From positions 19,513,655 to 19,577,654 of the forward strand of contig NC_091137.1 in NCBI RefSeq assembly GCF_041381155.1: a stretch of DNA of 64,000 nt, given 5' to 3'. The notes below the pieces were generated by a model. The model was not told the origin of the DNA. It did no database searches and saw only the letters and a program-made list of their open reading frames with translations. The translations under genes and the position numbers were made by a program. This DNA is from Argopecten irradians. Taxonomy: Eukaryota; Mollusca; Bivalvia; Pectinida; Pectinidae. Below are positions 4,315 through 47,300 of this stretch, piece after piece; position 1 is the stretch's first letter; the number at the start of each line of letters is the position of its first letter.

Positions 4315-4516
4315 AGAGCAACTTTTGTACCAATGTGACTAAAGCTTTCTATAGTTAAAATGGTATGTGTTGGTAAGTCAAAGGCATATACCATGATGTT
4401 AAAACAAAACTTGTTTTTATTACAAATTCATTAGAGGTGTGAATATTTGTTTTTGTCTGCGTTTGCTGCTCATCTCTTTCCATAACGCAATCGATATTTC
4501 TATTTACAGCTTTAAA

Positions 4517-7500
4517 ATGTTTGAGCCAGAAAATGATAAAGTCTTCATTTCATACAGCAGTGAAGATATAGACTTGGTCCGAACAATACGAGCAGGATTC
4601 AAGAATCACGGTAGTTGTCAAAGCTAAGTAACTTCTTTAGAAATAAATATAGTTTTTATCTATGATAATTTCATACAATGTCTCGTAAATTGTCTATAAA
4701 ATACATTATTGCTTGCTGCCATTTAACCATGGCCGTTTAGTTATGGACTTTATATATGAGTATTAGGTAGAAATCTTTAGAATGGTATCATTAGATATGT
4801 TCTAAGAATTCATTAAAACGTCCTTAGAATATGCATGTGTATAACATATAATGAGATTTCCATATTGTAATGATATTTTACTCTGGGAGTGTTTTTACAA
4901 TTACGAGACTGAAAATGTCCTCCTTACAGTGGAAAATCTGTATAATTACTTCTGTCTCCACATTTTTTTTCAGCGAATCTGGACTGTTTTGTTGCACATG
5001 ATGCAATCCAACCTGGTACTCACCCACTAGACGCCATAACATACGCCCTGGCAAACAGTCGGGCATGTCTGTTTCTGGTCACCCCCGACGCCTTGGACAG
5101 TTCCTGGTTCGCCTTCGAGACCATCCTCACCTTGGAGAGATCTCAACAGAGGGGCCTGCTCAACTGTGTGATGTTACTACACGGCGTGAGTGAGGAACAG
5201 GTATATAGTACTCACTTATATCATAAACAGGTGTAGCTAACAATGAAGAATGTTGGTAGCATTGTCACAAAATATTACAAATTAAAACAAAATTACATTG
5301 AGATAACATCTTTTTTAAACATTTGGATTTGAATTATATCATAATAAAAGACACTGCTCATGGAATCAATAATCCTTATTTTCCTATATTCTTTGTTTAA
5401 TGTCTTATATCTAAGATAGTCAATTATTATGATCGTTAACGAAACACGAATATCCATCAATGTCTTTACTTTAGAAAGTGAATAATGGCAATGATTTAGT
5501 AAATTACAGTTATTTTTGTGACAAATGATAGACTTCAACGTATATCTTTGCATAAGACAGTGTATACTGAGAACATCATCAATGCTTATCTTAAAACGGA
5601 AACAAAACACACTATACCAAACGTAGAGCATTAGCAATATCAAATCAATGAACAAATCAATTAATAGTTGTGGAGCCAAGAGAACACTGCTATATAACAT
5701 ACTTTGTATACACATTTAAATATGAAAACATTTTACCGATCATTCGATGAAATTAAAATAGAAATGACATTCTCCTTAAATGATTCCTTTCAGCTTCCTA
5801 AATTTGCACTGTTCCACGTGATCGATAAATACGTACTGTGCTTAGATGAATCAGGAATGTGGCAGCGAGAGCAGATAGACCTGGTGTTGAAAACTATCCA
5901 AGGTAACATAAATTATAATACTGTCATATCTGGATTTTACAACAACTTTAATCTCGACACTTTTATTTTAAGTAATACTGAAGTAAAAATATTCTCCATT
6001 TCCACAAAAAGTGCAACAAAAGATAAAATATAAATGCCGAGCATTATTCATTCCTGCTGGTCAAAATATAAGTTATAAATATATAAAATACCTAATGTCC
6101 TAATTGCCACGAGTTTGATAAAATAAATTTAAAGTGATTTATGGATTTGATTTGTACTTTCAGATTCAAAGAGAATCGACAATATGCTACCGGTGGGAAA
6201 TGTTGCGCATGCCCAGGCTTGGTCCCATTATTTTGGATATCACCATGTGATACATCCATGTATGTATACCGATGTATATGTTCAATCTAATCTACCAGAA
6301 TGTACAGGTGAAGTGAAACAAAGGGAAGTAACTCTGACTGTTACAGTCTTTTGATATAATCTTTGACTTCTTAAGTTATCGCTCAATTATTATAAAGAAT
6401 TTTATTTGTTCGAATTTGTTTGAAGGATTACAGATTTCAGACTACAGAAACTAAACAAATAAGTGTTAACATACCACAAGGGAAAATATAAGGTTGGCAA
6501 GATTATGATGCTTTTGACTTTAAATAGTTTTTTCTTTTGATTTATTAAAAATACAAATATTCGGTCACGCAAAGAAAAAACAAAACATAAATAGATAAAG
6601 ATGTAAACTAAACATTTTTTGAAACTGAAAAATAATAACGAAAGAGAGAGGGGATCAAATTTTATTGTATACTTATTGCATCCTATCTTCTCTAAACCTT
6701 TTTTTCTAAATATGAAAATTTATAGTGCATATAAATTCCTTCAATCAGTCATTTGGTTTTTCTATTTATAGATCTCGCTGAGAAAATAAGAAAATGTTGC
6801 TGGTATAAGGATAGTCGAATGCCTATAGCAGTCTATGAAATTGTTCCAAAAAACTGCGTCATACCTTCAGTTATCAAAGGAGATAAAATAAGGAAAGTTG
6901 GGGCGCTTGAACCGTTCGAAGTAAAGATGGCCGGCAATATCAGGCGAAAATTTGAATTAAATGTATACTGTATTGAAGATAACGGGGAGGTATGAAATAT
7001 CAAATATATTTATTCTTAATATTATCTTAATTAACACTTAAAGATGTTCCACCGCCGACAGAGCATACATGATTTTCATCATTTGAAAAATAATTGGTGT
7101 TTCATCGTGTATATATATGCTTAAAAACACAAAAAAATAATATGAAATAATTTATTTGGCCTTTGGTGCATGTTTAATCAGTACTTCATTCCGTATAGGA
7201 TATAGTGCCACGGATGTTTTTCGGGATGCATATTTTTAACTTGAAGTATAATAAGAAGGTCGACCTTTTCAATGGTGATACTGGTGTAAAGTAAGTAACT
7301 TTTGTAACTGATGAACAAATTCTAAATCGCCTGCTCCTGTTTCTGATAGTGAAAAAATACCATTTGTCGGCGGTGGAGCTTCTTTAAGATAGCATGTGGG
7401 GTTACACCTGAGGTACGGCAATATGTTTTTGACCGAAAACGGTAGTCTAATATAATTAAAAATTGAAAAACTCTATTAGCTCTTATATAATGTAAGTATC

Positions 7501-8211
7501 AGTGAATATTCGCCAATTTATCATCAATATCTAAAATTTGATTGAATACCGTTTATTTATTTGTATTGTTTTATTTTCTATCGTTATAGAAATACTACTG
7601 CGTTGTACAGTATCCAAACGTATTAAGCGCCATTCAGAAGATGGCGGCGTCTACAAGTATAGACATGGATGAGGCTCATAAGCGCCTACAGGTGGCGAGG
7701 CTATATTACACTCTCCATGCCATACTCCAACATTCCAACGTTACGGGGTGTCGTCAGCAGGCGAGGCTACTGTGGTGCGATGGTAACTACACTAACACTA
7801 CACAACAAAATTATAATGTGAAGTTACGGTCAAAAAAAACTTAATTTGATTTTTGAAACACTTATTTTTATCACCCTAAGCACGCATTTACTTGAACGGT
7901 ATCCAAATAGTTCAATAATTTTAAGCCTGATTTATGTATAGCCGATGGCTTCATATCTCATAACCTTTAGCAAACCGCGTTACTTAACAGAAATATCGGG
8001 CTTTCCATTTCAAGATCATTATGTTATAGACCGCAAATCATACATGTTCATCTACATGTAATTGGGCAAAAAGAAACATATAGATAAAATCAAACATTAA
8101 AACAACCGAGATTATTTTAAGATGTTTGTTTATAACAAGATATTAATCTTTTCAGACTCTGTTGAAGATGCGACCGATGTGTTATTGAAGGCAGTAAAGA
8201 GGGACATCGAG
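4517..8211 (+). CDS. STING: TIR-STING protein, module A (exons 1-7)
   Basis: Role: STING domains bind cyclic dinucleotides made by cGAS-like enzymes. Fused TIR domains act as NADase effectors in bacteria, and TIR-STING proteins are known in oysters. Exons: 4517-4610, 4974-5200, 5794-5902, 6164-6307, 6772-6989, 7590-7782, 8156-8211, all with GT-AG ends and matching phases. Residues 1-143 are a TIR domain: box 1 VFISYSSED at 9-17, and SSWFAFE with the candidate catalytic Glu80. Residues 144-347 are a STING ligand domain: NVAHAQAWS then Y169 (human S162 and Y167 conserved), AGNIRRKF with R250 at the human R238 position and F252 for Y240, then CVVQYP. There is no transmembrane segment and no vertebrate-type C-terminal tail. 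ATG 4517 is the first in-frame ATG, just after an acceptor at 4509. The last exon either splices on to 8601 through a weak GAG|GTTTGA donor or reads through to a TGA at 8215-8217, which would end a separate gene of 348 aa. Confidence 0.88.
7038..7387. mobile_element. TTAA-flanked MITE, copy 1, in a TIR-STING intron
   Basis: Terminal inverted repeats TTAAAGATGTTCCACCGCC at the left and its near-complement GGCGGTGGAGCTTCTTTAA at the right. It lies between exons 5 and 6 of module A. A second diverged copy is at 40819-41185. The TTAA ends would fit piggyBac-type target choice, but the family is not proven. Confidence 0.65.
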
Positions 8212-8600
8212 GTTTGATTTGTTCATTCTGACGTTTACTTGTGAATCAAAGTTGGTACATCTATAAATATTATTGTTCCAGATTGCCTTTCATGGCCCAA
8301 CCATAAAGTATTGTAATTAAAACAATGACCATGACACAAACTGTATAAAATACATTGAAAAACTTATCCAAAATTCAAAATTATTAAAAAATGAATTAAA
8401 ATGTTTTTATCTTATCATGATAGTATCACGCTCTTATATAACTTCATGATAAACGTACCGCTACCAAATAATTTACGATAAACATTTTTTTCCCGTTTGA
8501 ATTATGAAAGCCGTGTGTTTGAGTGTGAGATGCATCATTTGTAATTTGATATAGTAACAAACCTACCGTGTTAGTTTATCAACTTTCCATCTTGTTTCAG

Positions 8601-11600
8601 TTTTCATCTTTCGACACTACTGCCGACGAAATGGGAAAAGTTTTAAGATCTCTAGAAGCAGACAACTTTCAAGAGAAGCAGTACGATGCCAGTATCGTCC
8701 ACGACAGCGGGGATACAGAATCTAACGCCATATATTTACAGATAGAAAATTACCTTGAGAGCAGAGATGTCCACCTTTACTCAAATACGGCTGGAGCAAA
8801 AGAATTAGGCGGTATGATGATTTTTTTTTATAGTCCTGTATATATTTAAACCTGCCTTAGCCGTCACTTTATATAAAGACCACCTGCTTAATAAGATTGT
8901 TTTGTCGGGGTCCGAAATGGTCGAATTCAACACAATTTTGGCCTGTGTAGAAAGACAATCTGGCTATAAAGACCATTTCGTCTTTGTTCCTTGGTGATCT
9001 TTATACTTAATTAATGACTTATGCATGTCATGTATAACAATTACCTGATTTAGATATATACGTTTCTGTTTATAGCGATAGACGAGACATTAAAGGTGGT
9101 GCGGTGGCTGATCCTGATAATCAATCAAGATAGATCGTCTAAAAGCTCACCTTTCAAGATGCAGACATTGAGCATTCTAGCGAATTGTGTCAACAACAGA
9201 CAGGTTAGAATCATCCCGGTTATCCAAAATTCTGCGAAAAACTGCAACAACGTAAATGATGATGGCCACGGTAACAGCAATTCAGATGAGGTAACCAATG
9301 ACAACGGGGAATGTTCTATGATTAGCGGAAGCATGCATGATGATGGCATTATACCCTATTTGTTTAAATGGGTAACATACATAGAGACTCGCACAGCAGG
9401 CTACGAACAGCGAGTTTATCAAGCTTTAAAAGGCAGGTAATCCTGTGATTCTAATTTGTCTACGGTAAAAGCGAAGCTGTACTATAGTATTAGCACCGCC
9501 GATACACAGAGGCTAATATTACTCTCTTGCAGATGTACCATTAATATATTGCCAACATAGATAGTCATTATACTCACTTAGTAGGACATTATACGAAAGT
9601 GTCAATATATACATTAAACGTAGTCAAAAACAATGAAATATCTAAATTAAATTATCAATGAATAAAATTTTCTTCTACTTATATTGCACTCGATGAAACC
9701 ATTTTTGTTAATGATTTATATCATGATTCAGAACACTGAACAATCTGTATCAACACACGGTTAAAGGGGGATAACTCCAGCACAATTATTTATTTCGATG
9801 TGAACAGATTAACTAATTCAATAGATTTTAAACTGAAAACTTGAATGAGTCCTTAATTATTATATTTTGTTATAAACGCGATACATACTATGTTTAAAGC
9901 CCTCAAATGAATTCATTAACATGCTTCAAAAACAACTCAATGCGTCACTGATATCGACCAAACGCAAGAATAAATCATCAAGTAAACAACGCAAATGTGT
10001 AACAACAAAAGTGAAAAAATAGGAAAAGTCATACACATGAAATATTTGGCTAATGTCGAAAATAATCTGCTTCAATTAAGGATTAACTTGAATAGATTGT
10101 TTATATCATGGAGATATAACACAAAAATCTGAGTGTACTCTAAATAAACCGCGAAGCGCTTTATGATGAGAGTACACTCATATTTTTGTGTTATATCTCC
10201 ATGACATAAAAATTCTATTCAAATTAATCCTTATAATTTAATGTACAAAGATAATCTTCTCAATACTCAAAATTCATTTTGGGACTCTTTTGTCTATGAA
10301 ATCATTACACCGTCATCTCAGCCAATCAGAAGCAACATCACAAACGGCGACGCCGTTTTTTCCTTTATGGGCTGATAAAGTAAATTTTTAAGCCAATGAA
10401 AATGCTCGTAACAAGCAAAATTGAATTATATTACCATAACGCTGATGTTTTGTTATCAGGTGGCGGCATCCCTCTGACATTGGAGGCGGGACATATTCCA
10501 GCTGGAAACATTGGTTATGGCTTCGCCTGGGGCTACGTCGTTAATTACCTAACGACTGTTCTACGGCGTAGGTTATTGAAAAAAGTCCGTTTAAGGACAT
10601 TCCTAGACGAAAAACATAACGAAGATTACTGTAAACAATTTATTTTTGCGTACTAATAAATTCCATGTGTTTTGCGGACAAGCAAAACTCACGAACATTT
10701 ACGAAAAGTTGAAAATGTAAAATGGACCCATACTACTTTAAATCGCGAAATTAAATATCCCAAAAAAAGAAGCTGGGCATTAAAACTCAAAGTAAAATAT
10801 CAGCGAAAATAAGTTGGTCTAAAATATCTCACATTTGTTATGAATGAAAAAAGATTTTTTTTTTTTTTTTGTAAATTCACTAGACATACACCCAAAATAG
10901 GTTACAAAGGTAATTTTGTGAATGTATTTGTTACCAGTGATCGGAGAACCCTTTCAAACATTCCTGAGGGCGAACAATGTATCATGTCCTGCCAAACTGT
11001 ATCTGTTGATACCGCAGACATGTGACTGCCCAGGAAAAATTACAAATACGCATGTCAGCCATGTCAAGTCAACGGAAGCGAAAGACGACCAGTGCGGTGG
11101 CGCCAATATCCCAAAAGGTCTGGATATGTACTGTCTCGCCGATGTTGCTGATGAATCAAAGGTTGGTTTGTACCTTAATCCGAAGGGTTAAGTAATAAGG
11201 GCGCAGCCCCTTCGGGCACCAAGTTCGAAGCACTTCTAAGGTAACACATACACGAAAATATAGGAAAAATTCAATCTTCAAAATTTATTCCTACACACTG
11301 ACAGCTTCAGTTTGCGGCCGCCCTTTTTTTACCCACTGTAAAAAATCCCATCAGCGTGAATGCGATGCTTTGAAGTCAGCTCATTATGTAATCAAGCGGT
11401 TCAAACGCTTTTATAATCCGAAGTACGTAATCTTCATCCGGCAGAAGCTCAGTGATATTGCTCTTTATTTGCAAGCGTTCAGACAGACCACCTTCCAATA
11501 TAATCAGTTTACCAAAAACGGAATATCTGTTACGGAAATAAAAATTTCTTCCTTCTCTCATGTGGATTTCCTTTTCCATGTAGGTTTTGGGACAAGAATA

Positions 11601-12807
11601 GAGTGTGAATATATGAATAAAAACTAAACAGAACATTCTCAAGAACAGAGTGTGAATATATGAATAAAAACTAAACAGCAAATTCGGCTCCGTTATTTCC
11701 ATTAATTGAACTTTTCAACAGTGCATGATTAATTGTTACTGAAACATCTGGCTGCGCCCTTTAAGACCTTGCCTTCAGTCATATTATTTTCTGATACATG
11801 CCGATCTCAAGGAATGTGTTATTTGACAACTTGAAGAATGTCAAACATTGTTGTTACTATAGAAACTATAGCTTATAAATTATCCTGAACACAAGGTTAC
11901 GTATCACTATATACCGAAACGCCATTTTATTGTGTTTTTATTTGATAACAGGTGCACAATTTCATAGGACAATACCCTGCCCCATTACGGACCCTTCATC
12001 TGATGAATGAGTGTAGAATAGCCGGTATCAACCCAGAGTCAATGAAAAGGGAACAACAGAGGTTATGTGACACTCTCCAGGATATCCTGTGGTCTCCAGT
12101 TGGAGAAGGACTTCACACTAAATGTGAACTTGTCTTCTATGATGGTATGTAAGATTTTCGGGCTTCAGGTTTGGTTTTCAAAATGAGAATAGCAACTGTC
12201 ATTATTGCCAATAAATTTCGACATCTAAACGAAATTTCATGTCATATACTATTTGAATGATCAAAACCATTGTGGTGCATGGACTACCTCGCCATTTTCA
12301 ACAGCTGACATTTAAACAGATGAAATCATTATGAACAAAAAATGTCCTAGGGCGATCTGGATTTTTCCAATATTCTTAATGGCATTAGATATTTCTATTT
12401 GTCCACAATTATTTATTTTAGACGACTAACGTCTTTAATCATCCAAGGGAGTTTTAAGAGTCCTGAATAGAACTCCGTGTCATTTATTCATTCTTAATAA
12501 ATGATACATTGTATCACCGTTATTCCATCAGTGACTAGGCATTCTATTCAAATTTTCGAGTACGCATCTGTATCCACAGTATGGATGTTGTAAATTTGCT
12601 AATTTTACTATCTATCTTTTTATAATTTGATCAAGCAATGTTATGATTACTCTTTTCCGTTTAGACACAGATAATGGCGACCTCCAACGACAGCTACTGC
12701 CTAAAATACAAAGTGAATTGAGACTGGAGAATTCATATAAAAAACGTCCTCTAGGGACAGCAGTCCAGAGTGACGTGACTTCCGTAAAGCAACCACGATT
12801 TCAATGA
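8601..12807 (+). CDS. STING: TIR-STING protein, module B (exons 8-13)
   Basis: Second TIR-STING unit, directly downstream of module A. Exons: 8601-8811, 9076-9432, 10460-10630, 10938-11161, 11952-12144, 12665-12807 (TGA 12805-12807). Joined to module A the protein has 779 aa; alone it could start at ATG 8631. The TIR domain has box 1 YDASIVHDSGD, then SSPFKMQ, which places Gln447 where module A has Glu80. The STING domain has NIGYGFAWG and Y566: human S162 is Gly here, Y167 is kept, and the R238 and Y240 positions are not basic or aromatic. KLYLLIP and QYPAPLRTL match the STING core. Exon phases repeat those of module A, and exons 6 and 12 are both 193 nt, so the modules arose by tandem duplication. 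Exon 9 needs a GC donor (AAAG|GCAGGT at 9432/9433) to keep frame. The tail after residue 733 is basic and lacks the TBK1/IRF3 motif. Confidence 0.82.
8872..9005. mobile_element. Short MITE in TIR-STING intron 8
   Basis: The left end TATAAAGACCACC (8872-8884) is mirrored by GGTGATCTTTATA (8993-9005). An internal ATAAAGACCATTTCG repeats the left-end theme. It is non-coding and lies wholly within the intron between exons 8 and 9. Confidence 0.55.
10071..10428. mobile_element. Interspersed repeat, copy 1, with a 150 bp foldback half
   Basis: The left half (10078-10232) is a near-perfect palindrome; one arm reads AGGATTAACTTGAATAG and the other CTATTCAAATTAATCCTT. The right half (10233-10428) is shared with 35418-35704 at high identity and includes AGCCAATCAGAAGCAAC and CAATGAAAATGCTCG. 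The ends TTCAATT and AATTGAA are inverted. It ends about 30 bp before the acceptor of TIR-STING exon 10. Confidence 0.65.
11585..11680. repeat. Short tandem duplication in TIR-STING intron 11
   Basis: A block of about 50 bp containing AGAGTGTGAATATATGAATA appears twice in direct repeat, at about 11598 and 11646. It is local slippage or duplication with no coding effect. Confidence 0.6.
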
Positions 12808-17025: not shown

Positions 17026-20000
17026 TGAAGGCAACGAAGAGGCTTTGGTCACCCTGTACCAGATAGGCCGGGCGCCTAACTCGCCTAGTCTGACGCCATT
17101 TGCAATCAAACTCGAGACCTACCTCAGAGCAGCTAACATTCCATATAAGGTGAGAACCTAAACAGATAGCGTACGAAACTCCTATTTTGTATTCATTGTT
17201 CATAGTATAAATGAAATATATAGAAATAAAAAATAATTATAGCTAAAAAGATCAGCATTTGTACAAACGATTATGTTTTGTTTTCTTTTGCTAGAAATAG
17301 ATAAGATATGATCACTACCCTGAATAACCATACCTAATTAAACGACGACAATGTCTTCAAGTTAGGAAAACAAAAATGAAAACTGACAGAATGTAAGTAT
17401 TATAAGGAATGTGCTTTTTGTTTATGCTACAAAGACATTTGTTTTCCAATTCGTAACAAAATTGTTTTAGAATGACCACAGCGGTAAGAAAAGTTCAAAA
17501 GGCAAGTTTCCTTGGATCTCCTACAAGGGGAAGCCTGTTGCTGACTCAGAATTTTGTATAGAGTTCCTAAACAAGGAGAGGAATATTGACCTAAACAGTC
17601 ATCTCAGCGAGGAACAGAAAGGAGTGGGGCGAGCACTTCAGAAAATGGTAGAGGAAAACACATACTGGTAGGCTGATTTGCCCACATAGTGGTAGGCCGA
17701 TTTAAACACATACTTGTAGGCTGATTTAAACACATACTGGTAGGCTGATTTAAACACATATTGGTAGGCTGATTTAAAATACCTACTGGTAGGCTGATTT
17801 AAACACAAACTGGTAGGCTGATTTAAAATACATACTGGTAGGCTGATTTAAAATACATACTGGTAGGATACTGGTAGGCTGATTTAAACACATAGTGGTA
17901 GGCTGATTTTAAAATACATACTGGTAGGCTGATATAAAACACATACTGGTAGGCTGATTTAAAATACATACTGGTAGGCTGATTTAAAATACATACTGGT
18001 AGGCTGATTTAAATACATACTGGTAGGCTGATATAAAACACATACTGGTAGGCTGATTTAAACACATACTGGTAGGCTGATTTAAAATACATACTGGTAG
18101 GCTGATTTAAAATACATAGTGGTAGGCTGATTTAAAAATACATACTGGTAGGCTGATTTAAAACACATACTGGTAGGCTGATTTAACTACTGGTAGCTGA
18201 TTTAAATACACTGGTAGGCTGATTTAAACAAATACTGGTAGGCTGATTTAAACACAATATTGGTAGGCTGATATAAAACACATACTGGTAAGCTGATTTA
18301 AACACAAACTGGTAGGCTGATTTAAAACATACTGGTAGGCTGATTTAAAATACATACTGGTAGGCTGATTTAAAATACATACTGGTAGGCTAATTTAAAA
18401 TAACTATTGGTAGGCTGATTTAAACACATATTGGTAGGCTGATATAAAACACATACTGGTAAGCTGATTTAAACACAAACTGGTAGGCTGATTTAAAATA
18501 CCTACTGGTAGACTGATATTAAATACATACTGGTAGGCTGATTTAAAACACATACTGGTAGGCTAATTTAAAATACATACTGGTAGGCTGATTTAAAATA
18601 CATACTGGTAGGCTGATTTAAAACATTGGTAGGCTGATTAAATACATACTGGTAGGCTGATTTAAAACACATACTGGTAGGCTGATTTAAACACATAGGC
18701 TGATTTAAACACATACTGGTAGGGTATGGTAGGCTGATTATAAAACACATACTGGTAGGCTGATTTAAACACAAACTGGTAGGCTGATTTAAAATACATA
18801 CTGGTAGGCTGATTTAAAATACATACTGGTAGGCTGATTTAAAATACATACTGGTAGGCTAATTTAAAATAACTATGGTAGGCTGATATTAAATACATAC
18901 TGGTAGGCTGATATAAACACATACTGGTAGGCTGATTTAAACACATACTGGTAGGCTGATTTAAACACATACTGGTAGGCTGATTTAAAACACATACTGG
19001 TAGGCTGATTTAAAATACATACTGGTAGGCTGATTTAAAAAACTGGTAGGCTATTTAAAAATACTGGTAGGCTGATTTAAAACACATACTGGTAGGCTGA
19101 TTAAAAAACACATACTGGTAGGCTGATTTAAAACACATACTGGTAGCTAATTTAAACACATACTGGTAAGCTAATTTAAAACACATATTGGTAAGCTGAT
19201 TTAAACACATACTGGTAGGCCGATTTTAAAACACATACTGGTAGGCTGATATAAAAAAAACATACTGGTAGGCCGATTAAAAACACATACTGGTAGGCCG
19301 ATTTAAAACACATACTTAGTTAAAACATATGAGGCTGATTTAAACACATACTGGTAGGCTAATTTAAACACATATTGGTAGTTTTATTAAAACTTAAAGT
19401 TATAGGCCGATTTAAACACATATTGGTAGGATGATTTAAAAAATCAATTTGAGCTATTAAACACATACATATACTGCTGCTTGTTTACATTACGAAAAAT
19501 ACGTGTGGGCATCTCTATAAAAACAATAAGCCTTTATACTATTTTTCTGTTTAGGGTTCTGGTTCTAGATCGGTGGTTATATGACAAAACGAATGGCGTT
19601 TGCATCGCCTTTAAGATCCCGAGTATAATGAGATGGCTTCCGCGGAGGAAGTTCGTAGGCTTCGCCAAAAAACAAGGAATTGGGCTTCACAGCAAAGCAG
19701 AAGTCGAACAGATCCTTCGTAAGGACGTTAAAGCTATTTCCGGCTATCTCGGTATGTAAATGTGTTTTGTTGAAAGATCAGAGGTTAAATGGTCGTTTAG
19801 CTTGATACCTTTTGTTGTTAAAACACATGCAACCGTTTGCTTCTTTTAAAAAGTATATCTTATACTCAGAGATCACGGGTACTAAATAAATGTTTACGTT
19901 AGTTATATTCAAAACAAAAAAACCACAATTTGATAGCAATCTATCTTGTAATTCTCAAAATGTATGAAAATTACGGAACATATAATTTTGTTTCTAATTT

Positions 20001-23000
20001 TGCTCCAAAACCTTGCTCAAACAAATAATAATAATAAAACGGGATTGTCTAGTCATACAGTGATAAGATAGACCAGTGTTTGTCGTGGACACATTAGAAA
20101 TTTAAAAAACGGTGAACTGGGTAATTGTTTGATAAAACGCGCACCGCTTATTATTTTTATAAATGGATGTACTTTAAAAGTGGGTATATTTACTTCTGAT
20201 CGTTACTACGAGAACGACATCATACTTTTTGTCCCCTTTAATTGAAGCACTTCAAGCTATACCCTGACCTTGTCAGGCGGAGTAGTGTAAATGAACGATG
20301 AAGTGTCTAATATTAGTAAATATTAAAATGTCTTTGTTTTTACTTTCGATAACAATTCTAAAGTGCATTTAATGGGAACATGATACTTGTCATAGTGCTG
20401 CACGTATTTATGTTCTGATATATATTGTACTGGTATTCGTTCTAAATACCTCAACTATTGTCTATGCACAGGCTCAAAGAAGTTGCTGTTTGGTGACAAG
20501 ATATCTCAATATGACACTGCTGTGTTTGGCCAGTTGGCCGCAATGAAATATGAACCCTTTGGAGGAATGGCCGGTGGAGTTATCGATGGTAATGACTTAA
20601 AGTTGTATTGCTGCTAATTTCACTGTAACGATATGTAACTTAAACATTTGATATTTAAACATTGACATGTATCTTGATGATTTAGCTCCCCAAAAGCATA
20701 TGTCGGCCTATAAGAGAGCCGAAATCTAGGAATCATATATTCCTGGTTTTGAATAAAGCGCCTTCAATCACCGCCATGTTCAGTGACTTCGGGTTTTGTC
20801 GGAGTCCTAATCGTATCACGTGACTGACGTTCGACACGACCTGCACGTGGTGAGCCAGGTAACAAGCGTAAGCACACATGTGTTTGTTTACGTTTTCCTT
20901 CTGGCATATATGAGCAAATCATGCTAGTATATGTCCACAGATTGAGTATTTGAAACATCCAATTTACACATTACCGTAAAATGTTGTGTGTATCAAATAT
21001 TGTAATGTGCGAGCATTATTTTCTTTGTAGATAGAGTCTGATGAGGTCGACCACATATTTTGTGTATGAAAAATTGTTGATATTTTCTCTTGGTTTCTCA
21101 ACTCTCGTTTTACTTCGAGATTGTCGCGACGATGTTCGGAAGAGTTCGGAATGATTCGGCATCTTTCGAGCCTATTTTTCACGTGTACATGTTAAAAAGA
21201 TTTTTTACTTTTATAATTAAAGATACTTCCAGTGCTGCCTTTTTTTATAAAAAGTGGTAAAATTAGAAAGTTTAAACCTCAGGCAGACGGAGAAAAATAT
21301 GTATATCACTTATACAGTTTTCACTATGACAAAAAGAGCGAAAGTTCTAGACCATACAACTTTAAACCATGGTATCTTAGGCCGTTGGTGTATGTAATAA
21401 TACTGATCAGCATTTGTTTTAGGTACACTTAAAACTTACAATAGAAATATTGCAACGTGCATAGTTACATGTGCAAGCTATTGCAAACTTATTTGCCGAT
21501 GTTTAAGATAGATGTATAAATATGGCAAGTTATTTCTTTAGAAATGATTAAAGTAACACTGGATACTGATTGCTGCAAGTAGCATTTTAAGCTGAGTATG
21601 TATTAGTATACATTTAAAGTATGATATTGAGGGATTAGCAAGTTCTCATCTCCCGAGATGACTTACTTTTAAAGTTGTATTGCTGCTAATTTCACTGTAA
21701 CGATATGTAACTTAAACATTTGATTATATTTAAACATTGACATGTATCTTGATGATTTAGCTCCCCAAAAGCATATGTCGGCCTATAAGAGAGCCGAAAT
21801 CTAGGAATCATATATTCCTGGTTTTGAATAAAGCGCCTTCAATCACCGCCATGTTCAGTGACTTCGGGTTTTGTCGGAGTCCTAATCGTATCACGTGACT
21901 GACGTTCGACACGACCTGCACGTGGTGAGCCAGGTAACAAGCGTAAGCACACATGTGTTTGTTTACGTTTTCCTTCTGGCATATATGAGCAAATCATGCT
22001 AGTATATGTCCACAGATTGAGTATTTGAAACATCCAATTTACACATTACCGTAAAATGTTGTGTGTATCAAATATTGTAATGTGCGAGCATTATTTTCTT
22101 TGTAGATAGAGTCTGATGAGGTCGATCACATATTTTGTTTATGAAAAATTGTTGATATTTTCTCTTGGTTTCTCAACTCTCGTTTTACTTCGAGATTGTC
22201 GCGACGATGTTCGGAAGAGTTCGGAATGATTCGGCATCTTTCGAGCCTATTTTTCACGTGTACATGTTAAAAAGATTTTTTACTTTTATAATTAAAGATA
22301 CTTCCAGTGCTGCCTTTTTTTATAAAAAGTGGTAAAATTAGAAAGTTTAAACCTCAGGCAGACGGAGAAAAATATGTATATCACTTATACAGTTTTCACT
22401 ATGACAAAAAGAGCGAAAGTTCTAGACCATACAACTTTAAACCATGGTATCTTAGGCCGTTGGTGTATGTAATAATACTGATCAGCATTTGTTTTAGGTA
22501 CACTTAAAACTTACAATAGAAATATTGCAACGTGCATAGTTACATGTGCAAGCTATTGCAAACTTATTTGCCGATGTTTAAGATAGATGTATAAATATGG
22601 CAAGTTATTTCTTTAGAAATGATTAAAGTAACACTGGATACTGATTGCTGCAAGTAGCATTTTAAGCTGAGTATGTATTAGTGTACATTTAAAGTATGAT
22701 ATTGAGGGATTAGCAAGTTCTCATCTCCCGAGACTTGTCTTTTCAAGAGGTGAAGCCCGGGAAAAATGGATTAGTCCGAAGGAAACTAGAGACTTGCTTG
22801 CTATCTACCCCAATCCAATAATTTAACTGTTTTAACATACAGATACTGTAATAATTAAAGGCAATGATTTTACCAGAAGATTAATTTGTCTCATACACTA
22901 TATTCATGTTCTACAAATTCAATGATCAATATAATAAGAAATTGAAAAAAAAAGAATTTTAATATAAAATGTCCTTTTTATGTCTTTTTTGGTTTGCTTC

Positions 23001-30960: not shown

Positions 30961-31469
30961 TTTGATGTATAACCACATGATCTATTTGATGTATAACCAC
31001 ATGATCTATTTGATGTATAACCACATGATCTATTTGATGTATAACCACATGATCTATTTGATGTATAACCACATGATCTATTTGATGTATAACCACATAT
31101 GTATAACCACATGATCTATTTGATGTATAACCACATGATCATGATCTATTTGATGTATTACCACATGATATATTTGATGTATAACCACATGATCTATTTG
31201 ATGTATAACCACATGATCTATTTGATGTATAACCACATGATCTATTTGATGTATAACCACATGATCTATTTGATGTATAACCACATGATCTATTTGATGT
31301 ATAACCACATGATCTATTTGATGTATAACCACATGATCTATTTGATGCATAACCACATGATCTATTTGATGTATAACCACATGATCTATTTGATGTATAA
31401 CCAAATGATCTATTTGATGTATAACCACATGATCTATTTGATGTATAACCACATGATCTATTTGATGCA
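30961..31469. repeat. Minisatellite, 24 bp x about 21, 5' of the dioxygenase
   Basis: Near-perfect array of TTTGATGTATAACCACATGA followed by TCTA. One short irregular stretch near 31096-31160 has an internal deletion and an ATCATG slip. Because 24 is divisible by three, long frames stay open on both strands (31099-31488 +, 31078-31476 -), but these are repeat artefacts. It lies about 220 bp upstream of the dioxygenase ATG, next to a possible leader-exon donor. Confidence 0.92.
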
Positions 31470-33360: not shown

Positions 33361-36300
33361 TTATTTTATTGTGCATAAACCACAGAATTTCTGGCAGTAG
33401 GTCATTGCTAGATTGTAGACAGAACAAATGTTGATTTCAGCCATAAACTCACAGCGGATTCCAGGCTTGTCTGCGCATGTCTGTCCAACAGCTTAAAGAG
33501 AACGACATATACTTTCAACAGATGTAATCAAATAAATAATGTAACGTTTTCGGGGGTCTGGCGATCACATTTCGATACAAAAAAAAGACAAAAAAAATGT
33601 TTTATAACAGATACTAAGATATCACTGTAAAACAACATAAAGGAAGACAAAATACATATATTACAAATTTCTATAGTACCACCATTTATGTTCTCCTCCT
33701 AACTGTCCTAAACCATATGATTGTATCAATGGATGATTGAATTCTTGCTTGGACAACCATGGATCTTAAGAGACATCCAAATTATTTTACGAGTCTAATA
33801 CTGGAAGACACACTGCATGTTTACTTTAATCGATTAAGATATATCTCTCAAACACTTTACTTCAAGATTATATCCCGCGTGCATTTTACGGGTGAATGGC
33901 GAAAATAAGATAATTATCACAGCTTACCAAACGTCGTAGCAGCAGGTTTAGAAGTGGTAATGATGACCGGGACTTGCGTGGTAGGATTTGGTTTAGGAGT
34001 GGTTTTAATCGGTAGGGGTGGACTTGGTGGACTTGGTTTAGGAGTGGTATTTAGGACCGGAACTTGAGTGGGCGGAGTTGGTTTCAGAGTGGTTTTAATC
34101 GGTAGGGGCGGAGTTGGTGGACTCGGCTTGGGAGTGGTATTTAGGAACGGAACTTGAGTGGGCGGAGTTGGTTTCAGAGTGGTTTTAATCGGTAGGGGTG
34201 GAGTTGGTGGACTTGGTCCGGGAGTCGTGCTGATAAATGGAGCTGGAGTTGGCGGACTTGGTCTAGGAGTTGTGCCGATAAATGGAGCTGGAGTTGGCGG
34301 ACTTGGTCTGGGAGTTGTGCCAATAAATGGAGCTGGAGTTGGTGGACTTGGTCGAGGAGTTGTGCCGATAAATGGAGCTGGAGTTGGTGGACTTGGTCTA
34401 GGAGTTGTGCCGATAAATGGAGCTGGAGTTGGTGGACTTGGTCGAGGAGTTGTGCCGATAAATGGAGCTGGAGTTGGCGGACTTGGTCTAGGAGTTGTGC
34501 CGATAAATGGAGCTGGAGTTGGTGGACTCGGTCGTGGAGTTGTGCCGATAAATGGAGCTGGAGTTGGTGGACTTGGTGTAGAAGTTTTGCTGATAAATGG
34601 AGCTGGCGTTGGCGGACTTTGTCGAGGAGTTGTGTTGGGGACTTGAGTCGGCATTGGAGGAGTTAGTCTTGGAGTTGTGATGATAATTGGAGCTGGAGTT
34701 GGCGAATTTGGTCTAGGCGTTGAGCCGATAAATGGAGCTGGAGTAGGCGGACTTGGTCTGGGAGTGGTTGTTATTCCCGGAGGTGGCGCTGGTGTAGGTT
34801 GCTGGGTCGATACAGATAGCGGGGCTGGTGATGGTGGTGTAGGTACAGGGCTACTATCAAGTCCCAACCCTGGCGTGGGCGTCTGAGGTGGAGGTGGAGC
34901 ACGTGTTTTCATAGTCGTTACCGTCGGGCTTGTTGATGTGGGAAGGCCAACCATGTCTGCCATGGAACACAGTTGTGGTGATGCTGACGAGGTAGTTACA
35001 ACTAAAATATTAGTAATGTACAATGATATAAACTAATAATTTTATATAAGGTAAGTTCCAATACCATTTACATCGAATAATGTATTTACCAGATAGACAC
35101 TATTTCCCTTCCCTTTATCCAACTTGGGACTACATGTATATACCGATACCTGTCGGGATTTCATTGTCGTATAATTAACTGATTAAACGTTTCTCGATTA
35201 CGTTCGTGTGATTAGAAAAGGATCATCATATATTTCATCAGAGTATGCGTGTATATACATCAAGTATTGATTATCAGGTGCAAATGTCTTAATTATCGTA
35301 TGGACATTTTTAATATAGACCTACAATTGTATGTGCACTGAGCGAATTAAACTAAAGACTCACATTTATATTAGTACCAATGTCAGTATTAGAGTGACTA
35401 CAAGGGGATATAAATATTTAAGGATTAACTTTAAATAAACCACTAAGCGGTTTATGATGAGAGTACACTCTCTTCATAACATCAAAAATCTATTCAAATT
35501 AATCCTTATAATTCAATTTACTAAAGATAATCTCTTCAAATTCAAAATTAGTTTTGGGACTCTTTTGTCTATGCAATCATTACGCTGTCATCTCAGCCAA
35601 TCAGAAGCAACGTTACAAACGGCGACGCCATTTTTTCCTTTAAGGGCTGATAAAGTAAATTTTTAAGCCAATGAAAATGCTCGTAACAAGCAAAATTGAA
35701 TTATTGTCAGACTACTTGAGTTCATCATTAAAAAAACACAACATATATTATTTTGACCCTTGATGCTACCTGGTGGACTATCATTCGCCGTCAGTATTCT
35801 TAGTACCGTATACATGTACGCAGTAAAAAAGAAAAGGAAATTGCAACCGAAATTTCTCTAATTTCATTAGTGTGCATTCCATTTTACGCTGAACGTGAAT
35901 TATGTTTAGTATTCAGCCCATTTGTTTTCATAGAAAAAGTTCGATTTATGGAGCAAGTCTAAAAGTTTATGGGCTAAATAAAATATGTAAGAAAAAATAA
36001 GTTTGTGATGCCTGCTAGGACTTTACCAGTCATGTTAAAATGGATATTTTCCCCCATTTTCTCTTCTTTTAATGAAGGTCTCATAAAGATTTTCCTTAGC
36101 TTTTTTGGTATACTTTCTGTATATAAATCGTTAACGGACTGTTTCTATGCTCCATTTCTTAGTACTATTCAAGCCAACCAAACTATTCTACATTTTTACA
36201 TGCATTCCTTTTCCTGTCCCGTGCATGCAATGAATTATGAGATAATATGAATCACATAGACCTACATGTGGTTCATGTATCTTTACATGTAGAATAAACA

Positions 36301-39300: not shown

Positions 39301-41601
39301 TTTTCACACTTTTAATACAGAAAATATAGTTGTGACACTCCAAGATTCCTCTTACCAGTCCAAATATGTTAAACAAAAATTATCGAAGTGCGTTTTAACC
39401 GAAGAGACCATAACCTCCCAATTCCGTTGTATCATCGAATCATTTATTTGTCGTGTATCAAATGAAGAAAGTGCGAAACTGTGTCTTACCTGGTTAGGCT
39501 GGCAGGTGACCGTTGTATTACAGTCTTTCAGTGACGTCACTCCATGACACTTGAGACACCTAACAGGGTCAGCAGCTAGCCAATCAGATAAAACCGACTG
39601 ATGTGATCAAAAACTATATTTTGACATGAATTGTAACTGTTTTAAATATTTCTTGAAATATGTATCGATATCTGTGAAATGTTTTTGTGTGTCTTGATAA
39701 AGGGACTGATCGCCTCAAAAATTTGACTTTTTTTGTCCAGACGATCGGAATTACTTCTTTGTCCCATTTTCCATTTGAAGTAATTCTTATCCTACATATT
39801 TTTACGTTTGATAGGATACGGTACCCTATCAAACGTAAATCTGTAGGATAGGTCATTTATAAAATCTATTGAAATTACGTCTTTAACCCAAATAATTCAA
39901 CATACTTTGCATGATTGACATTTATATGAAACCTACCTTGCAGCGATCGTATATAGAAACAGACAACAAGGGCGATCAGTGCAACTACAATACAAATGGG
40001 AATACAGAAAGTAGTCAATATTAAACACAATTAATTTCATATATTAAAAAAGAATATATTAAAGCACTCTGTCTTGGACAGGAAACCCATTTGATTTCAT
40101 AAATCAATTAGAAAAAATAATAGTGAGGTATCACTGTGTCCACGCTCCAACATCATGAAACGGTCTTTAAAAGTAAAAATTAGTCTTAAGTTAAGATATA
40201 GCCAGTCACTGATGATGTTACAAAAATACGTCATTTTCATTGGGTAAGCAAACACTACTTCATGATCGTGGGGCCTTGAAAGAAAACAACATAAGAAATC
40301 AACTACGGATGGCGTTCACTTACAAATGTATTCAAAATAGCAATGGCCAGATCTTGAGTTTGGAAACTTTTTTTTCAATAATGTAAAGTCGTCAAATTGT
40401 AAATGGTGTCGGTAAACGAACAAAAATTACATTGATCATGAGAGCAATAAAATAAGCTTACTTCATTCATTTGTGGTTCATTTTATTATACGAAAGGTTA
40501 AATTCATATCACGATTAGTTTACAATTCACCTTCACCAAACCGGAAGTACTTAACAGATAAGACAAAAATTTACATCCGACATTACATAAATCATATTAT
40601 CCACAAAGGATACATTTATTATTTATCTATAATCATGTTTACCTGAGGAACTTATTTTATGCTATTATACAACTGTTTCGTGATATCCATATGGAGAGAA
40701 ATTAACCGTTTGTGATACGGATGAAATAAAATAGTGGAGCTAGATGACTTACTCCTACTTGTACCAAATATACACGGCAGTATGAACACTCAGTAACAGA
40801 AAAAAAAACCGCAATTATCAAAGATGCTCCACCGCCGACAGAGCATAAATGATATTTATCATTTGAACAATAATTGGTGTTGAATCGTGTCTATTTATGC
40901 CTAATTAACACAAAAAAAAAATAATATAAAATAATTTATTTCGCCTTTGATGAATGCACAATCAGTACATCATTCCATATAGGATATAGTGCCACGGAAT
41001 TTTTTCGGGATGCAATTAATTATTTTTCATAACTTGAAGTATACTTCAAGAAGAAGCTCAAACTTTTCAATGGTGGTAATGGTGTAAAGTAAGTAACTTT
41101 TGTTACTGAAGAAAAATACTAAATCGTCTGCTTCTGTTTTTTGATAGTGAAAAAATACCATTTGTCAGCGGTGGGACATCTTTAACCGTTACAATGACGT
41201 ATACGCGTTAAGTAAGGCAAATAACTAGAACTGTTCAATCTCGATATAAGATCTGGATAGTGTTTGTATGGTCAGATTAAAAGACAGATGGCCAAAGAAA
41301 TTGTAAAACTACAAGATTTCGCATATATAATCTTAAAATAAAAGCAAATGCATAATTCATAAATGATAACATAGTGTGTGAATGCATTTCCTTTATTTGT
41401 AGACTTAATATATATGAATTCATGTGGTAAAAAATCAAAAGCCATGTTCCACTTATACACAGATGGTTATTAGGATCTCTTTCTCACATTACATAATACG
41501 AGTCTAAATAAAGTCTGGATAAATAACGGCGATATCAAAACATCGAGATGATTTAATATACAACAATACTCACATTTTACGTTTGCACCGATTCCTTCCA
41601 T
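33361..41601 (-). CDS. Secreted Ly6/uPAR x2 - mucin-like - ShKT protein, complete
   Basis: Function unknown; 627 aa. Exons: 41601-41574, 39984-39937, 39575-39490, 39266-39159, 38954-38828, 38459-38362, 37701-37639, 37399-37279, 35001-33928, 33491-33361 (stop 33363-33361). Every junction is GT-AG and in phase. Residues 1-26 are a signal peptide split by the first intron, with core FALIALVVCFYI. Two three-finger (LU) domains follow: one opening with CLKC and closing CCSTHVCN at 118-125, and one opening with CLSC and closing CCDGPLCN. Residues about 227-584 are a Pro/Thr-rich segment with about eight tandem 15-residue units around TTPRPSPPTPAPFI, likely O-glycosylated. The C-terminus (about 588-625) is a six-Cys ShKT domain, from CADKPGIRCEF to YCQKFCGLC. 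There is no GPI signal or membrane anchor after the ShKT, so it is probably secreted as a mucin-like linker protein. Confidence 0.85.
34205..34760 (-). repeat. 45 bp coding repeat in the mucin-like exon
   Basis: Tandem 45 bp units encode the 15-residue Pro/Thr repeat of the Ly6-mucin-ShKT protein on the minus strand. The units are nearly identical in the middle and decay toward both ends, as expected for unequal exchange. Long plus-strand frames here (34158-34886) are shadows of these units. Confidence 0.85.
35418..35704. mobile_element. Interspersed repeat, copy 2
   Basis: Same family as 10071-10428. It has the right half almost intact but most of the foldback half deleted. It lies in the intron between the second LU domain and the mucin-like exon. 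The shared segment includes CAGCCAATCAGAAGCAAC and AGCCAATGAAAATGCTCG. Confidence 0.65.
35705..37278. other. Intron sequence, no supported exon
   Basis: Part of the intron between exons 8 and 9 of the Ly6-mucin-ShKT gene. Open frames at 36005-36250 and 36970-37209 match no family and lack splice support. A GC-richer island near 36880-37110 is unexplained. Confidence 0.35.
38600..38722 (-). pseudogene. Relic duplicate of a LU-domain exon
   Basis: On the minus strand this repeats the 3' half of the exon at 38954-38828 and its downstream intron flank, about 173 bp away. It still reads CSTHV but the final CN and the donor are lost (TGGTTAATA where the real exon has G|GTGAGT). It is a decayed tandem duplication within the intron. 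Confidence 0.65.
39691..39851. repeat. Interspersed repeat fragment with a palindromic tail
   Basis: 39691-39770 matches 24221-24300 in opposite orientation. It is followed by an inverted repeat at about 39789-39849, whose arms read ACGTTTGATAGG and CCTATCAAACGT around a GTAC-containing centre. Intronic. Confidence 0.45.
40819..41185. mobile_element. TTAA-ended MITE, copy 2
   Basis: Same family as 7038-7387: it starts AAGATGCTCCACCGCCGACA and ends in the complementary CAGCGGTGGGACATCTTTAA. It lies in the first intron of the Ly6-mucin-ShKT gene. The copies have diverged, so they are not recent. Confidence 0.65.
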
Positions 41602-42583: not shown

Positions 42584-42591
42584 AGATTTGT

Positions 42592-43203
42592 ACGGCGGCG
42601 TATTAGGGCCACTACATATTTTTTTTATCTTGTACGTGTTAGTATCTTGTACGTACAAGTTAATATCTTGTACGTACAACTTAGTATCTTGTACGTACAA
42701 GTTAGTATCTTGTATGTACAACTTAGTATCTTGTACGTACAAGTTAACTTAGTATCTTGTACGTACAAGTTAATATCTTGTACGTACAAGTTAGTATCTT
42801 GTACGTACACGTTAGTATTAAGTTGTACGTACAAGATATTAACTTGTTCGTACAAGATACTAAGTTGTACGTACAAGTTAATAACTTGTGCGTACAAGAA
42901 ACTATCTTGTACGTACAAGATACTAAGCTGTACGTACAAGATATTAACTTGTACGTACAAGATACTAAGTTGTACGTACAAGTTAATTGTACGTACAAGT
43001 TAATATCTTGTACGTACAAGACACTAACTTGTACGTACAAGATATCAACTTGTACGTACAAGATACTAAGTTGTACGTACAAGATATTAACTTGTACGTA
43101 CAAGATACTAACTTGTACGTACAAGATACTAACTTGTACGTACAAGATACTAACTTGTACGTACAAGATAAAAAAATATGTAGTGGCCCTAATACGCCGC
43201 CGT
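42592..43203. mobile_element. hAT-like MITE packed with palindromic tandem repeats
   Basis: The terminal inverted repeats are about 35 bp and near perfect: ACGGCGGCGTATTAGGGCCA at the left, its complement TGGCCCTAATACGCCGCCGT at the right, each followed inward by CTACATATTTTTTT or its complement. An 8 bp direct duplication AGATTTGT flanks both ends (42584-42591 and 43204-43211), as hAT elements make. The interior is about 25 units of roughly 21 bp, each with the 14-base perfect palindrome CTTGTACGTACAAG. Units in the left half are oriented opposite to those in the right half. There is no transposase. Confidence 0.85.
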
Positions 43204-43211
43204 AGATTTGT

Positions 43212-44355: not shown

Positions 44356-47300
44356 ATGGCTACCAATGCTGTATTGAGGTGTCTACTGATTATAGCCAGC
44401 CTTTTAGTAGGTTTGTATTAAATTCATACTCTGTTCAAATAAACACATTTACACTTTAAATTGACAACTGTTAGAATCAAACGGTATGTTATATATTGTC
44501 ATAATATTGCGAGTTTTATTTTGTTTTTCAGCCGTTCTTGGCCTTTCACCTCCCTTATCCGAGAAAGCACTAAAGTGAGTTTTTCGCAGAGCACAACCAA
44601 TGCAATAAATATTATGTATCATAAAAATGTTTTATACATAGAATATTAAATACAGTACACGTAATATACTGTACATAGGTAACATATGCGTCACATACTG
44701 TAACATACTTCTTATTCATGGCTCTCTTTTTTCTTCAGTTTTTGAAAATATGTGTTTGTGCTTTATTCACCTTGCTATACGAATATGTTCAATTATGATT
44801 CTATTATATAATTACAATTAGTTTAGCAATTCTATGAAAATCACATGAATATTGCCACGCATGATTTACATGTGTGTCACTTTTGCCTGTGTACTTTACC
44901 ATTTTCAATCACCATTTCTCCTAACTGAATGTTGCTTAAACAAAATATAGAAAGAAAACATGTGACATTTCTCTACAAATATTGCATTTGCTTACCCTTT
45001 AAGTTCGTTGGATAAAGACGTTCGCTATGCTATACTCCATTCGAAAGTCCACCACCAACATCAACACTCAACAAAGACGTCGTTTAAGAGTATGTACGTC
45101 GGCTTAGGTGGAAGAATATACTCCACACCACAGATATTCTCTCAGACCATCAACGTAGATGCCACACAGGGCGTTTCTTACGCCATTTTACAAAAGGTAC
45201 GGATAACATAGTAATTAGTCATTGATCTACATATCTACATATTTACCAAATATGATATAAAATACAGTATTTAAGTACACACATATGTACGAATTATTGT
45301 GGTTTTTTTTTTACAAGATCGTTTCAATTGCACTATTCGCTGGAGGATTCACATCATTCTTATGTCATTAGGCAGCTGAAATGATTGGTATTGGCGTTGC
45401 CTGTTTTTCAACCCATTATTATTACATCGATTCGTCTATTTGATGTGATACATAAGCGTTGGCACTAAAACACCCTTAGGATATATAGATATATGAATGT
45501 CCCTCGTTGTTGTTTTATACCAATGACGAATATCAGCTTTCACCAAGGACGTATATCACTTATAAATCCTTGGCTTTCACATACCAAAATTTACACTTTA
45601 TTTTGTTTTAGAAATTATTCGGATAGTAGAACCAATTAGTAAGGAGTAAGCATTTACTATTTTATCATTGACATTCGTCACATAAATTAATGATAATCAA
45701 TGGAGTCGACATTTACTCAAATGAAAAATTGACAAGTGATCACAAGATGAATTCAGACCGAAAATCGAAATTCAAACCTTTCTATATCGCAATATGGACC
45801 GTGGAATACAATTGTATCGCGATCTGCATTTCTACTTTGTTAAAAAAAATGCCGAAGACTGAAGAAGTTATGTTACTATCCAGAAGCGGAAATACATTTT
45901 ACAGAAATAGAAAATTTTTGTTAAAATTGTTGTTATATTTAGCTCATTAAAAGAAGGGCATCCTCGATAGGGGTTCCAGGGGTTCCTATCACATACGATC
46001 TCCACACCCCTGGACTGCCTTCAGTTTTACAATGAGATTGCCAAGGGGTTTAGAGATGGTATGTGATTGTAACCTCCAGAGTATCGAGGATGCAATAAGG
46101 GTAATGTTTAATTATACTTGACTTTCACCAGTGTCTATACGTTTAATCATGTCTTTTACTCTAAGTATAAACAAATCCTACTTCTTTAGATATTATGTTA
46201 ACGAATCTACATAAGTAATTTAAATAATGATACCCGTAATTGTTTTATCATTTACGTAGTCTAGAAAAGTGCAAGTGAAATATTTCAGAATTGTAGTTCG
46301 ACCGTTATTCAACTAAACGTTTAAATAATGATATTCTGTTGTTTCATTCAGGCAGCCACTATTGTTTCTAAGATGGTGCAGTACATGCCTTCGGATGTAT
46401 TCTCTAGAATAGCAAACAGTCATGGCGTAGGAATATTCTCAGCTGCTGAGGGCGCCACTGCATTTCCGGAGAATGCAAATCTAGCTGACACTCCTCAGTG
46501 CCATGGTAATTTTACTAATGTTATTATATTTTTAGTTACATCATTGGAAGACCCAAATGTTAGTTACACTGTAGTACTGAAATGTCAAATATCTGTTTTG
46601 CCATCTCTTTTATAGTGAGGTTTGCGTTTTCGCGCTTCATTGAATTTGCCTTTGTCCACTTGCCATTCATATTGGCTATGAATTTCAACTGAAAGACGTT
46701 CAATACGTTAAAAATATACACCAGTATTTTTGTGTCGTGATATTTCTACATGATAGGCATATGCAGCGGATCTTGCGCTCACACGTGCACTACCGACGGA
46801 CGTAAATATTCTACCATCGCCGGGATTACCAACTCTCGATCCGTGGCCCTTTCTACAAATGTCGGTTGTCAGCCTGGTGACCCTCAGGCCGGACAGGAAA
46901 ACATCCTTGTGCACGAGTTTGGACACCTGGTTCTAATCTATGCGCCAACATCCTACAGAAATCAGGTAAACCTAGCTGACTAAAGGAACCATACATAGCT
47001 TTGTTAGGTGGACAGGGATATATCCACCTGAGTTTTGCCTCCTGTTGTCGTGTTGACAAAGAAAAAATCAGGTGGAGATATCTCCGTCCACTTGACAGAC
47101 GCAGGTTTGATTTTTCTCTCCTATATTGTTATTCCAACTGGTTCGAAATAACAGAATCACGTTGGTAAAGCTTAATGTACCGATACTTTGAAGCACATTT
47201 TAGTGATATTTACATCATATTTTAACGTCTTAATCGCTGGAAGATGGTACTAATCGCATTCTACCCAAGCCGTGTTGGTATCTCTAAACGTCCACGCTGT

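Follow-up and report, generated by a model that had tools for sequence, protein, structure and literature searches.

The window analysed here, 64 kb of the scallop Argopecten irradians (contig 4, C4, 19513655-19577654, in a genome of 846 Mb), contains a gene on its forward strand at 4517-12807 that encodes a single protein of four domains in the order TIR1-STING1-TIR2-STING2. Its 13 exons are spliced into an open frame of 2229 nucleotides (nt), giving 742 amino acids (aa) and a stop, and span about 8.3 kb of the genome; all introns are of the GT-AG type bar a GC-AG intron behind 9432. The first-pass annotation of this DNA had placed two TIR-STING modules on these coordinates and this strand and had proposed that they are spliced into one protein of 779 aa. 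The modules are borne out by STING ligand domains that score above cut-off in both halves, and the single four-domain protein by a homologue that reads through the junction, by other tandem homologues and by the occurrence of three further genes of this kind elsewhere in the genome; the length is corrected to 742 aa. The two units, called here half 1 and half 2, are unequal, and half 2, judged by its residues, is degenerate at the catalytic site of its TIR as well as at the ligand site of its STING domain.

One gene or two

When proteins were searched with the fused query, P0001 was returned; it has 742 aa, carries the source tag 'lgn' and is encoded without introns on a contig of 2339 nt, which we interpret as assembled from public reads. 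P0001 is equal to the spliced window sequence at 734 of 742 residues (8 differences) and crosses the 8211/8601 junction as KRDIE/FSSF. Since all of the exons of an 8.3-kb gene are present on a contig of this size, the contig must be spliced RNA.

The region could otherwise be read as two head-to-tail TIR-STING genes with about 400 bp between them. If exon 7 is left unspliced, translation runs just into the intron and ends at an in-frame TGA at 8215-8217, with an ATG at 8631, both present as first annotated; the exon 7 donor, gtttga, fits just five of nine consensus positions, and there are three ATTAAA hexamers in 8218-8600. Two genes nevertheless seem very improbable, given that the intron-free P0001 contig spans the junction. 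The donors at 8811 and 10567, likewise used in P0001, also fit at only five of nine positions, and 8218-8600 is without AATAAA. At the equivalent place the donor in gene A, one of the three further tandem genes, is gtaagt (read from three frames), and the match of this gene, P0004, is fused across the half-1/half-2 junction. A search with half 1 and an oyster query returned seven proteins, six TIR-STINGs of 343-432 aa, of which five are named and all from oysters (C. virginica, Saccostrea and Ostrea) and the sixth is P0011, together with P0007; a half-1-only scallop protein was not among them, although the 90 % clusters could conceal short forms.

Homologues and further copies in the genome

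Seven proteins were found with the fused query at E <= 0.001, and a profile made from these recovered the same seven and three other TIR-domain proteins. Two STING_LBD stretches are present in six of the seven. The named whole-protein relatives are all from scallops and are all annotated as 'uncharacterized protein': one each from Ylistrum balloti and Mizuhopecten yessoensis, which belong to the Pectinidae by taxonomy, and two from Pecten maximus, likewise a scallop. P0003 and P0004 lie, like P0001, on short contigs (the longest 2397 and 3711 nt). P0006, a predicted model from Pecten, starts near the last half-1 exon and continues into half 2, and thus carries the junction too. The Ylistrum protein P0002 is without the half-1 stem exon, perhaps through a fault of the gene model, and P0007 is annotated as partial and is without TIR1. 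The protein searches require shared five-residue words and have length limits, and distant tandem forms could escape them.

When the genome was searched with P0001 (E <= 0.001), at least 38 matches were found, 12 on C4 (the window gene), 23 on C14 and 3 on C11; these counts are lower bounds, scores having been computed for 60 of 64 candidates. Within 90 kb of C14 that were read, 13858033-13906246 holds three tandem genes, A, B and C, arranged head to tail, all on the minus strand, with starts 15-20 kb apart (32 exon matches in total). In each of them the half-1 exons precede the half-2 exons. Gene A agrees with P0004 at 94-100 % in 11 of 13 matches; the other two, at 80.0 and 78.6 %, probably overrun exon ends. 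With the window gene there are thus at least four tandem genes in this genome, and short contigs match two of these. The three matches of a genome search with PF15009 all fall in the C14 cluster; at the threshold used, the window gene was not recovered, which shows that this search is not sensitive. We note also three weak TIR1 matches on C11 (29183410, 29287891 and 29372134) in open frames of 215-392 aa, with no adjoining STING among the matches listed.

Domains and kinship of the two halves

The TIR of half 1 scores 47.2 bits against PF13676 TIR_2 (cut-off 28) and its STING domain 78.7 bits against PF15009 STING_LBD (cut-off 27), while half 2 matches STING_LBD at 58.6 bits; in the Pfam profile search no TIR family was found in half 2 of the window's own sequence. 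A second weak TIR_2 stretch is reported for P0002-P0005, its place within the protein not being printed, and residues 256-362 of P0007 reach 27.8 bits against the cut-off of 28. The match to the prokaryotic STING family PF20300 is weak, reaching 16.4 bits at most where the cut-off is 27.1. In a sequence search of the PDB the oyster TIR-STING 6wt6 is the best match both for half 1 (TIR and STING) and for half 2 (STING alone). The same oyster protein (6wt6/6wt7) is the best Foldseek match for structure models of P0001 and P0006, homologues modelled in place of the spliced window protein, and 6wt7 is aligned across residues 64-464 of P0006. No likely membrane span was found in the window protein, and the best reading of the sequence is that the protein would be soluble.

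Compared as one sequence each, the STING domains of halves 1 and 2 are 23 % identical with an E-value of 6e-8, a resemblance that is not due to chance; in single hhalign comparisons of the halves the STING domains gave an E-value of 2.8e-16 and the TIR domains a probability of 94 % and an E-value of 1.2e-7. Three STING introns are common to both halves (columns 292, 375 and 440; phases 1, 0 and 1), and a fourth pair has the same phase and lies three columns off. The first-pass annotation had described repeating exon phases, and this stands for these four introns (phases 1,1,0,1); it does not extend to the TIR introns, the first of which are both of phase 1 but 20 columns apart, half 1 having one TIR intron more than half 2. 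Its observations that exons 6 and 12 are both 193 nt long and that the STING domains carry the motifs NVAHAQAWS and NIGYGFAWG are correct. The shared intron positions and phases, together with the sequence similarity, show that the halves are related, and a recent tandem duplication is rejected on the 23 % identity of the STING domains. In the trees the half-1, half-2 and oyster rows form three separate groups on long branches, and halves 1 and 2 do not group to the exclusion of oyster under midpoint rooting, the only rooting used; the TIR tree is flagged with a long-branch warning.

Functional residues

The residue roles assumed here are those generally assigned to the TIR WxxxE glutamate and to STING sites 166, 167, 232, 238, 240 and 260. 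The role of R238, an arginine that contacts ligand in the animal and bacterial STINGs studied, is also described in PMC12424679. In half 1 the TIR WxxxE motif is found in all five rows covering the site (six of seven once genes B and C are added), both R238 and an aromatic residue at 240 (F or Y) in six of six rows, and Y or F at 167 in the five rows that cover it; P0001, which equals the window here, has Y167, R238 and F240. Half 2 differs in a consistent manner. The tryptophan and catalytic glutamate of its WxxxE are lost in all seven proteins, residue 238 is I or M and residue 240 is K in each (nine of nine with genes B and C, which have I at 238), and G162, N166 and Y167 are each present in seven of seven. 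The position of E260 is occupied by Q in both halves and every row.

Since catalytic and ligand residues are lost and TIR2 lies under Pfam detection in the window sequence, half 2 might be thought a decaying relic without a role. This appears improbable: half 2 is open in all seven proteins, with 53 columns invariant across them, its exons occur in each of the four genes of the genome, it has a 6wt7-like fold, and in the trees its branches do not exceed those of half 1 in length, the P0007 row excepted. The same half-2 lid recurs in genes B and C (GGANIIKSLDIY, GGTNIVKSLNIY), and this uniformity argues against simple decay.

The uniform replacements (G162, N166, K240 and I/M238, with Y167 kept, in seven of seven proteins) and the lid shared by genes B and C could also mean that half 2 is a specialized second receptor, in which STING2 domains would pair between chains and accept a different ligand by way of N166, K240 and the GGAN lid. 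The arginine that contacts ligand (PMC12424679) is gone from this half, however. A second receptor of this kind seems to us rather unlikely.

A possible mechanism

STING has been studied as a symmetric homodimer, and pseudo-partner designs are familiar among kinases; no such design for STING was found in the literature searched. From the sequence comparisons, the scallop protein is probably a soluble receptor for cyclic dinucleotides in which each chain has a working TIR-STING unit and a degenerate one. STING1 would bind a cyclic dinucleotide from the animal's own cGAS-like enzyme, possibly one of the Mab-21 family. STING2, which retains the fold and stem without the ligand arginine, would serve as a permanent partner of STING1 or as an assembly platform. 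Ligand-induced packing could then gather TIR1 domains for signalling or NAD+ cleavage, with TIR2 as a non-catalytic packing partner; most simply, half 2 would be a fixed partner, paired with half 1 or stacked on it, that determines the number of live TIRs that meet.

A model for such packing is offered by the filament of bacterial TIR-STING, in which ligand closes the lid, dimers stack and the packed TIRs complete each other's NADase site (PMC9402430); the TIR of the oyster protein is linked across a dimer interface according to the same article, and the oyster structure 6wt7 was solved with 2',3'-cGAMP, as its title states. More than 200 cGAS-like proteins are reported for some bivalves (PMC9980059), and the Mab-21 (cGAS-like) family has 77 exon-level matches across the present genome, some of them on small contigs and maybe duplicates. 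A local Mab-21 cluster is seen on C11 near 1.58-1.64 Mb.

Several observations weigh against this receptor. R232 is kept in only four of six half-1 rows, being Met in the window gene and Val in P0002, and TIR1 of gene C reads WFALQ, with Q replacing the glutamate. AlphaFold gave a moderate model for P0001 (predicted local distance difference test, pLDDT, 67.6; predicted template modelling score, pTM, 0.59) and a weak one for P0006 (pLDDT 57.6, pTM 0.46). In oyster, CgSTING and CgTBK1 were reported not to act downstream of CgcGAS, and binding of the CgSTING ligand domain to poly(I:C) and double-stranded DNA was described (PMC8218723), findings that speak against a plain route from cGAS through a cyclic dinucleotide. 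The TIR of the oyster TIR-STING groups with TICAM-type animal adaptor TIRs (PMC10732462), and TIR1 may thus not be an NADase. This grouping, and the assignment of CgSTING to the TBK1-IRF axis (PMC8218723), would suit the same four-domain protein with TIRs that act as a docking scaffold for adaptors and not as NADases. Such a scaffold, which is compatible with the receptor proposed above, is a serious possibility to which we would give a little less than an even chance, WxxxE being kept in six of the seven distinct half-1 TIRs that cover the site.

The first-pass annotation had raised a built-in pair of STING units but had overlooked the degeneracy of half 2; unequal halves on one chain suggest that such a pair, if it forms, would be an unequal one. 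We propose, more tentatively, that STING1 and STING2 of one chain might enclose a single ligand between one canonical and one altered half-site. If so, the two-fold symmetry of STING receptors would be broken, the asymmetric pocket could recognize, in a fixed orientation, a cyclic nucleotide that is asymmetric or new, and each unit would hold one live and one dead TIR. As a natural chain with unequal STINGs, shared by several scallops and encoded by four genes of a single genome, the protein offers a direct test of the need for STING symmetry, of how TIR activation is gated and of whether receptors for asymmetric second messengers have evolved.

Gene structure and other features of the window

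The coordinates of the window gene and of the C14 genes are given in Table 1. A splice acceptor at 4509 lies directly 5' of exon 1, which makes a 5' untranslated exon further upstream likely. The end of exon 4 was moved from 6307 to 6259 on the evidence of P0001, and an exon 9 end at 9436 was rejected because the reading frame would be lost, whereas P0001 agrees with a GC donor at 9432. An additional exon at 7199-7290 was dropped; it too disrupts the frame, and it sits in an interspersed repeat. This repeat (7040-7387, in intron 5) has a second copy about 34 kb downstream at 40820-41185, 84 % identical, and contains an exon-like stretch and an acceptor.

Table 1. Exons and selected introns of the tandem TIR-STING gene (window coordinates) and its relatives on C14 (contig coordinates)
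Feature	Position	Strand	Basis or remark
Exon 1: start codon, TIR box 1 of half 1	4517..4610	+	P0001 residues 1-31
Exon 2: TIR of half 1 including WxxxE (SSWFAFET)	4974..5200	+	gene model, site comparison
Exon 3: end of TIR 1, linker	5794..5902	+	gene model
Exon 4: half-1 stem helix of STING (LPVGNVAHAQAWSHYFGY)	6164..6259	+	3' end set by P0001
Exon 5: STING 1 lid, R238 equivalent	6772..6989	+	gene model, site comparison
Exon 6: STING 1 C-terminal part, 193 nt	7590..7782	+	gene model, intron comparison
Exon 7: final half-1 exon, donor GAG/gtttga	8156..8211	+	junction found in P0001
Intron between the halves, 389 nt	8212..8600	+	missing from P0001
Exon 8: linker, start of TIR 2	8601..8811	+	gene model, P0001
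Exon 9: remainder of degenerate TIR 2 (SSPFKMQT, W and E lost), GC-AG donor	9076..9432	+	
GC-AG intron between exons 9 and 10	9433-10459	+	backed by P0001
Exon 10: half-2 stem helix of STING (IPAGNIGYGFAWGYVVNY)	10460..10567	+	gene model
Exon 11: STING 2 lid (GGANIPKGLDMY; R238 to I, Y240 to K)	10938..11161	+	gene model, site comparison
Exon 12: STING 2 C-terminal part, 193 nt	11952..12144	+	gene model, intron comparison
Exon 13: C-terminus, TGA stop	12665..12807	+	gene model
Gene A	C14 13871250-13858033	-	13 exon matches
Gene B	C14 13886772-13879561	-	9 exon matches, from which it is known
Gene C	C14 13906246-13894807	-	10 exon matches, from which it is known

Elsewhere in the window, two exon-like pieces at 17027-17659 score 72.4 bits (cut-off 30) against PF17172, the N-terminal domain of a glutathione S-transferase, and further exon-like pieces at 46349-48146 resemble a zinc metallopeptidase gene with an HEFGH motif, its Pfam matches all being below cut-off. 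Long tandem arrays occupy 17655-19443, 30961-31469, 33945-34768, 48138-49687, 56168-57971 and 61875-63462, the third of them lying within 33917-35032, where the minus strand has an open frame of 371 aa with Pro/Thr-rich repeats. There is also a direct duplication of 1.06 kb (20597-21658 and 21669-22733, 99.4 % identical), and an array at 42591-43204 that matches itself in both orientations.

Comparison with known systems

Oyster is known to have single TIR-STING fusions (PMC10732462, PMC8204762), and one has been reported in the annelid Capitella (PMC6723221). No tandem TIR-STING of an animal was found in the literature searched, which was mostly non-subscription, so that an earlier mention is possible; the phrase 'two STING domains' does occur in two papers on bacteria. 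The animal STING ligand domains of human, anemone and coral differ from the scallop protein, which is without a likely membrane span, has a TIR in front and carries two ligand domains per chain. The TIR-STING of bacterial cyclic-oligonucleotide-based antiphage signalling systems (CBASS; Sphingobacterium faecium) has the same order of TIR and STING and may share with it a filament mechanism of TIR activation (PMC9402430), but it is a single unit, whereas the scallop gene has introns and no operon, and its match to PF20300 is weak. Closest is the oyster TIR-STING (Crassostrea gigas, 6wt6/6wt7), the best match for both halves, in which a TIR is likewise followed by a STING ligand domain. The oyster protein has one unit per chain, with the glutamate, R232, R238 and Y240 kept, while the scallop protein has two, the second degenerate. 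The animal TIR-STINGs known so far are single fusions, and the two units found here on one spliced contig depart from this; on its sequence we rate the tandem TIR-STING as an apparently new form within the known animal TIR-STING family.

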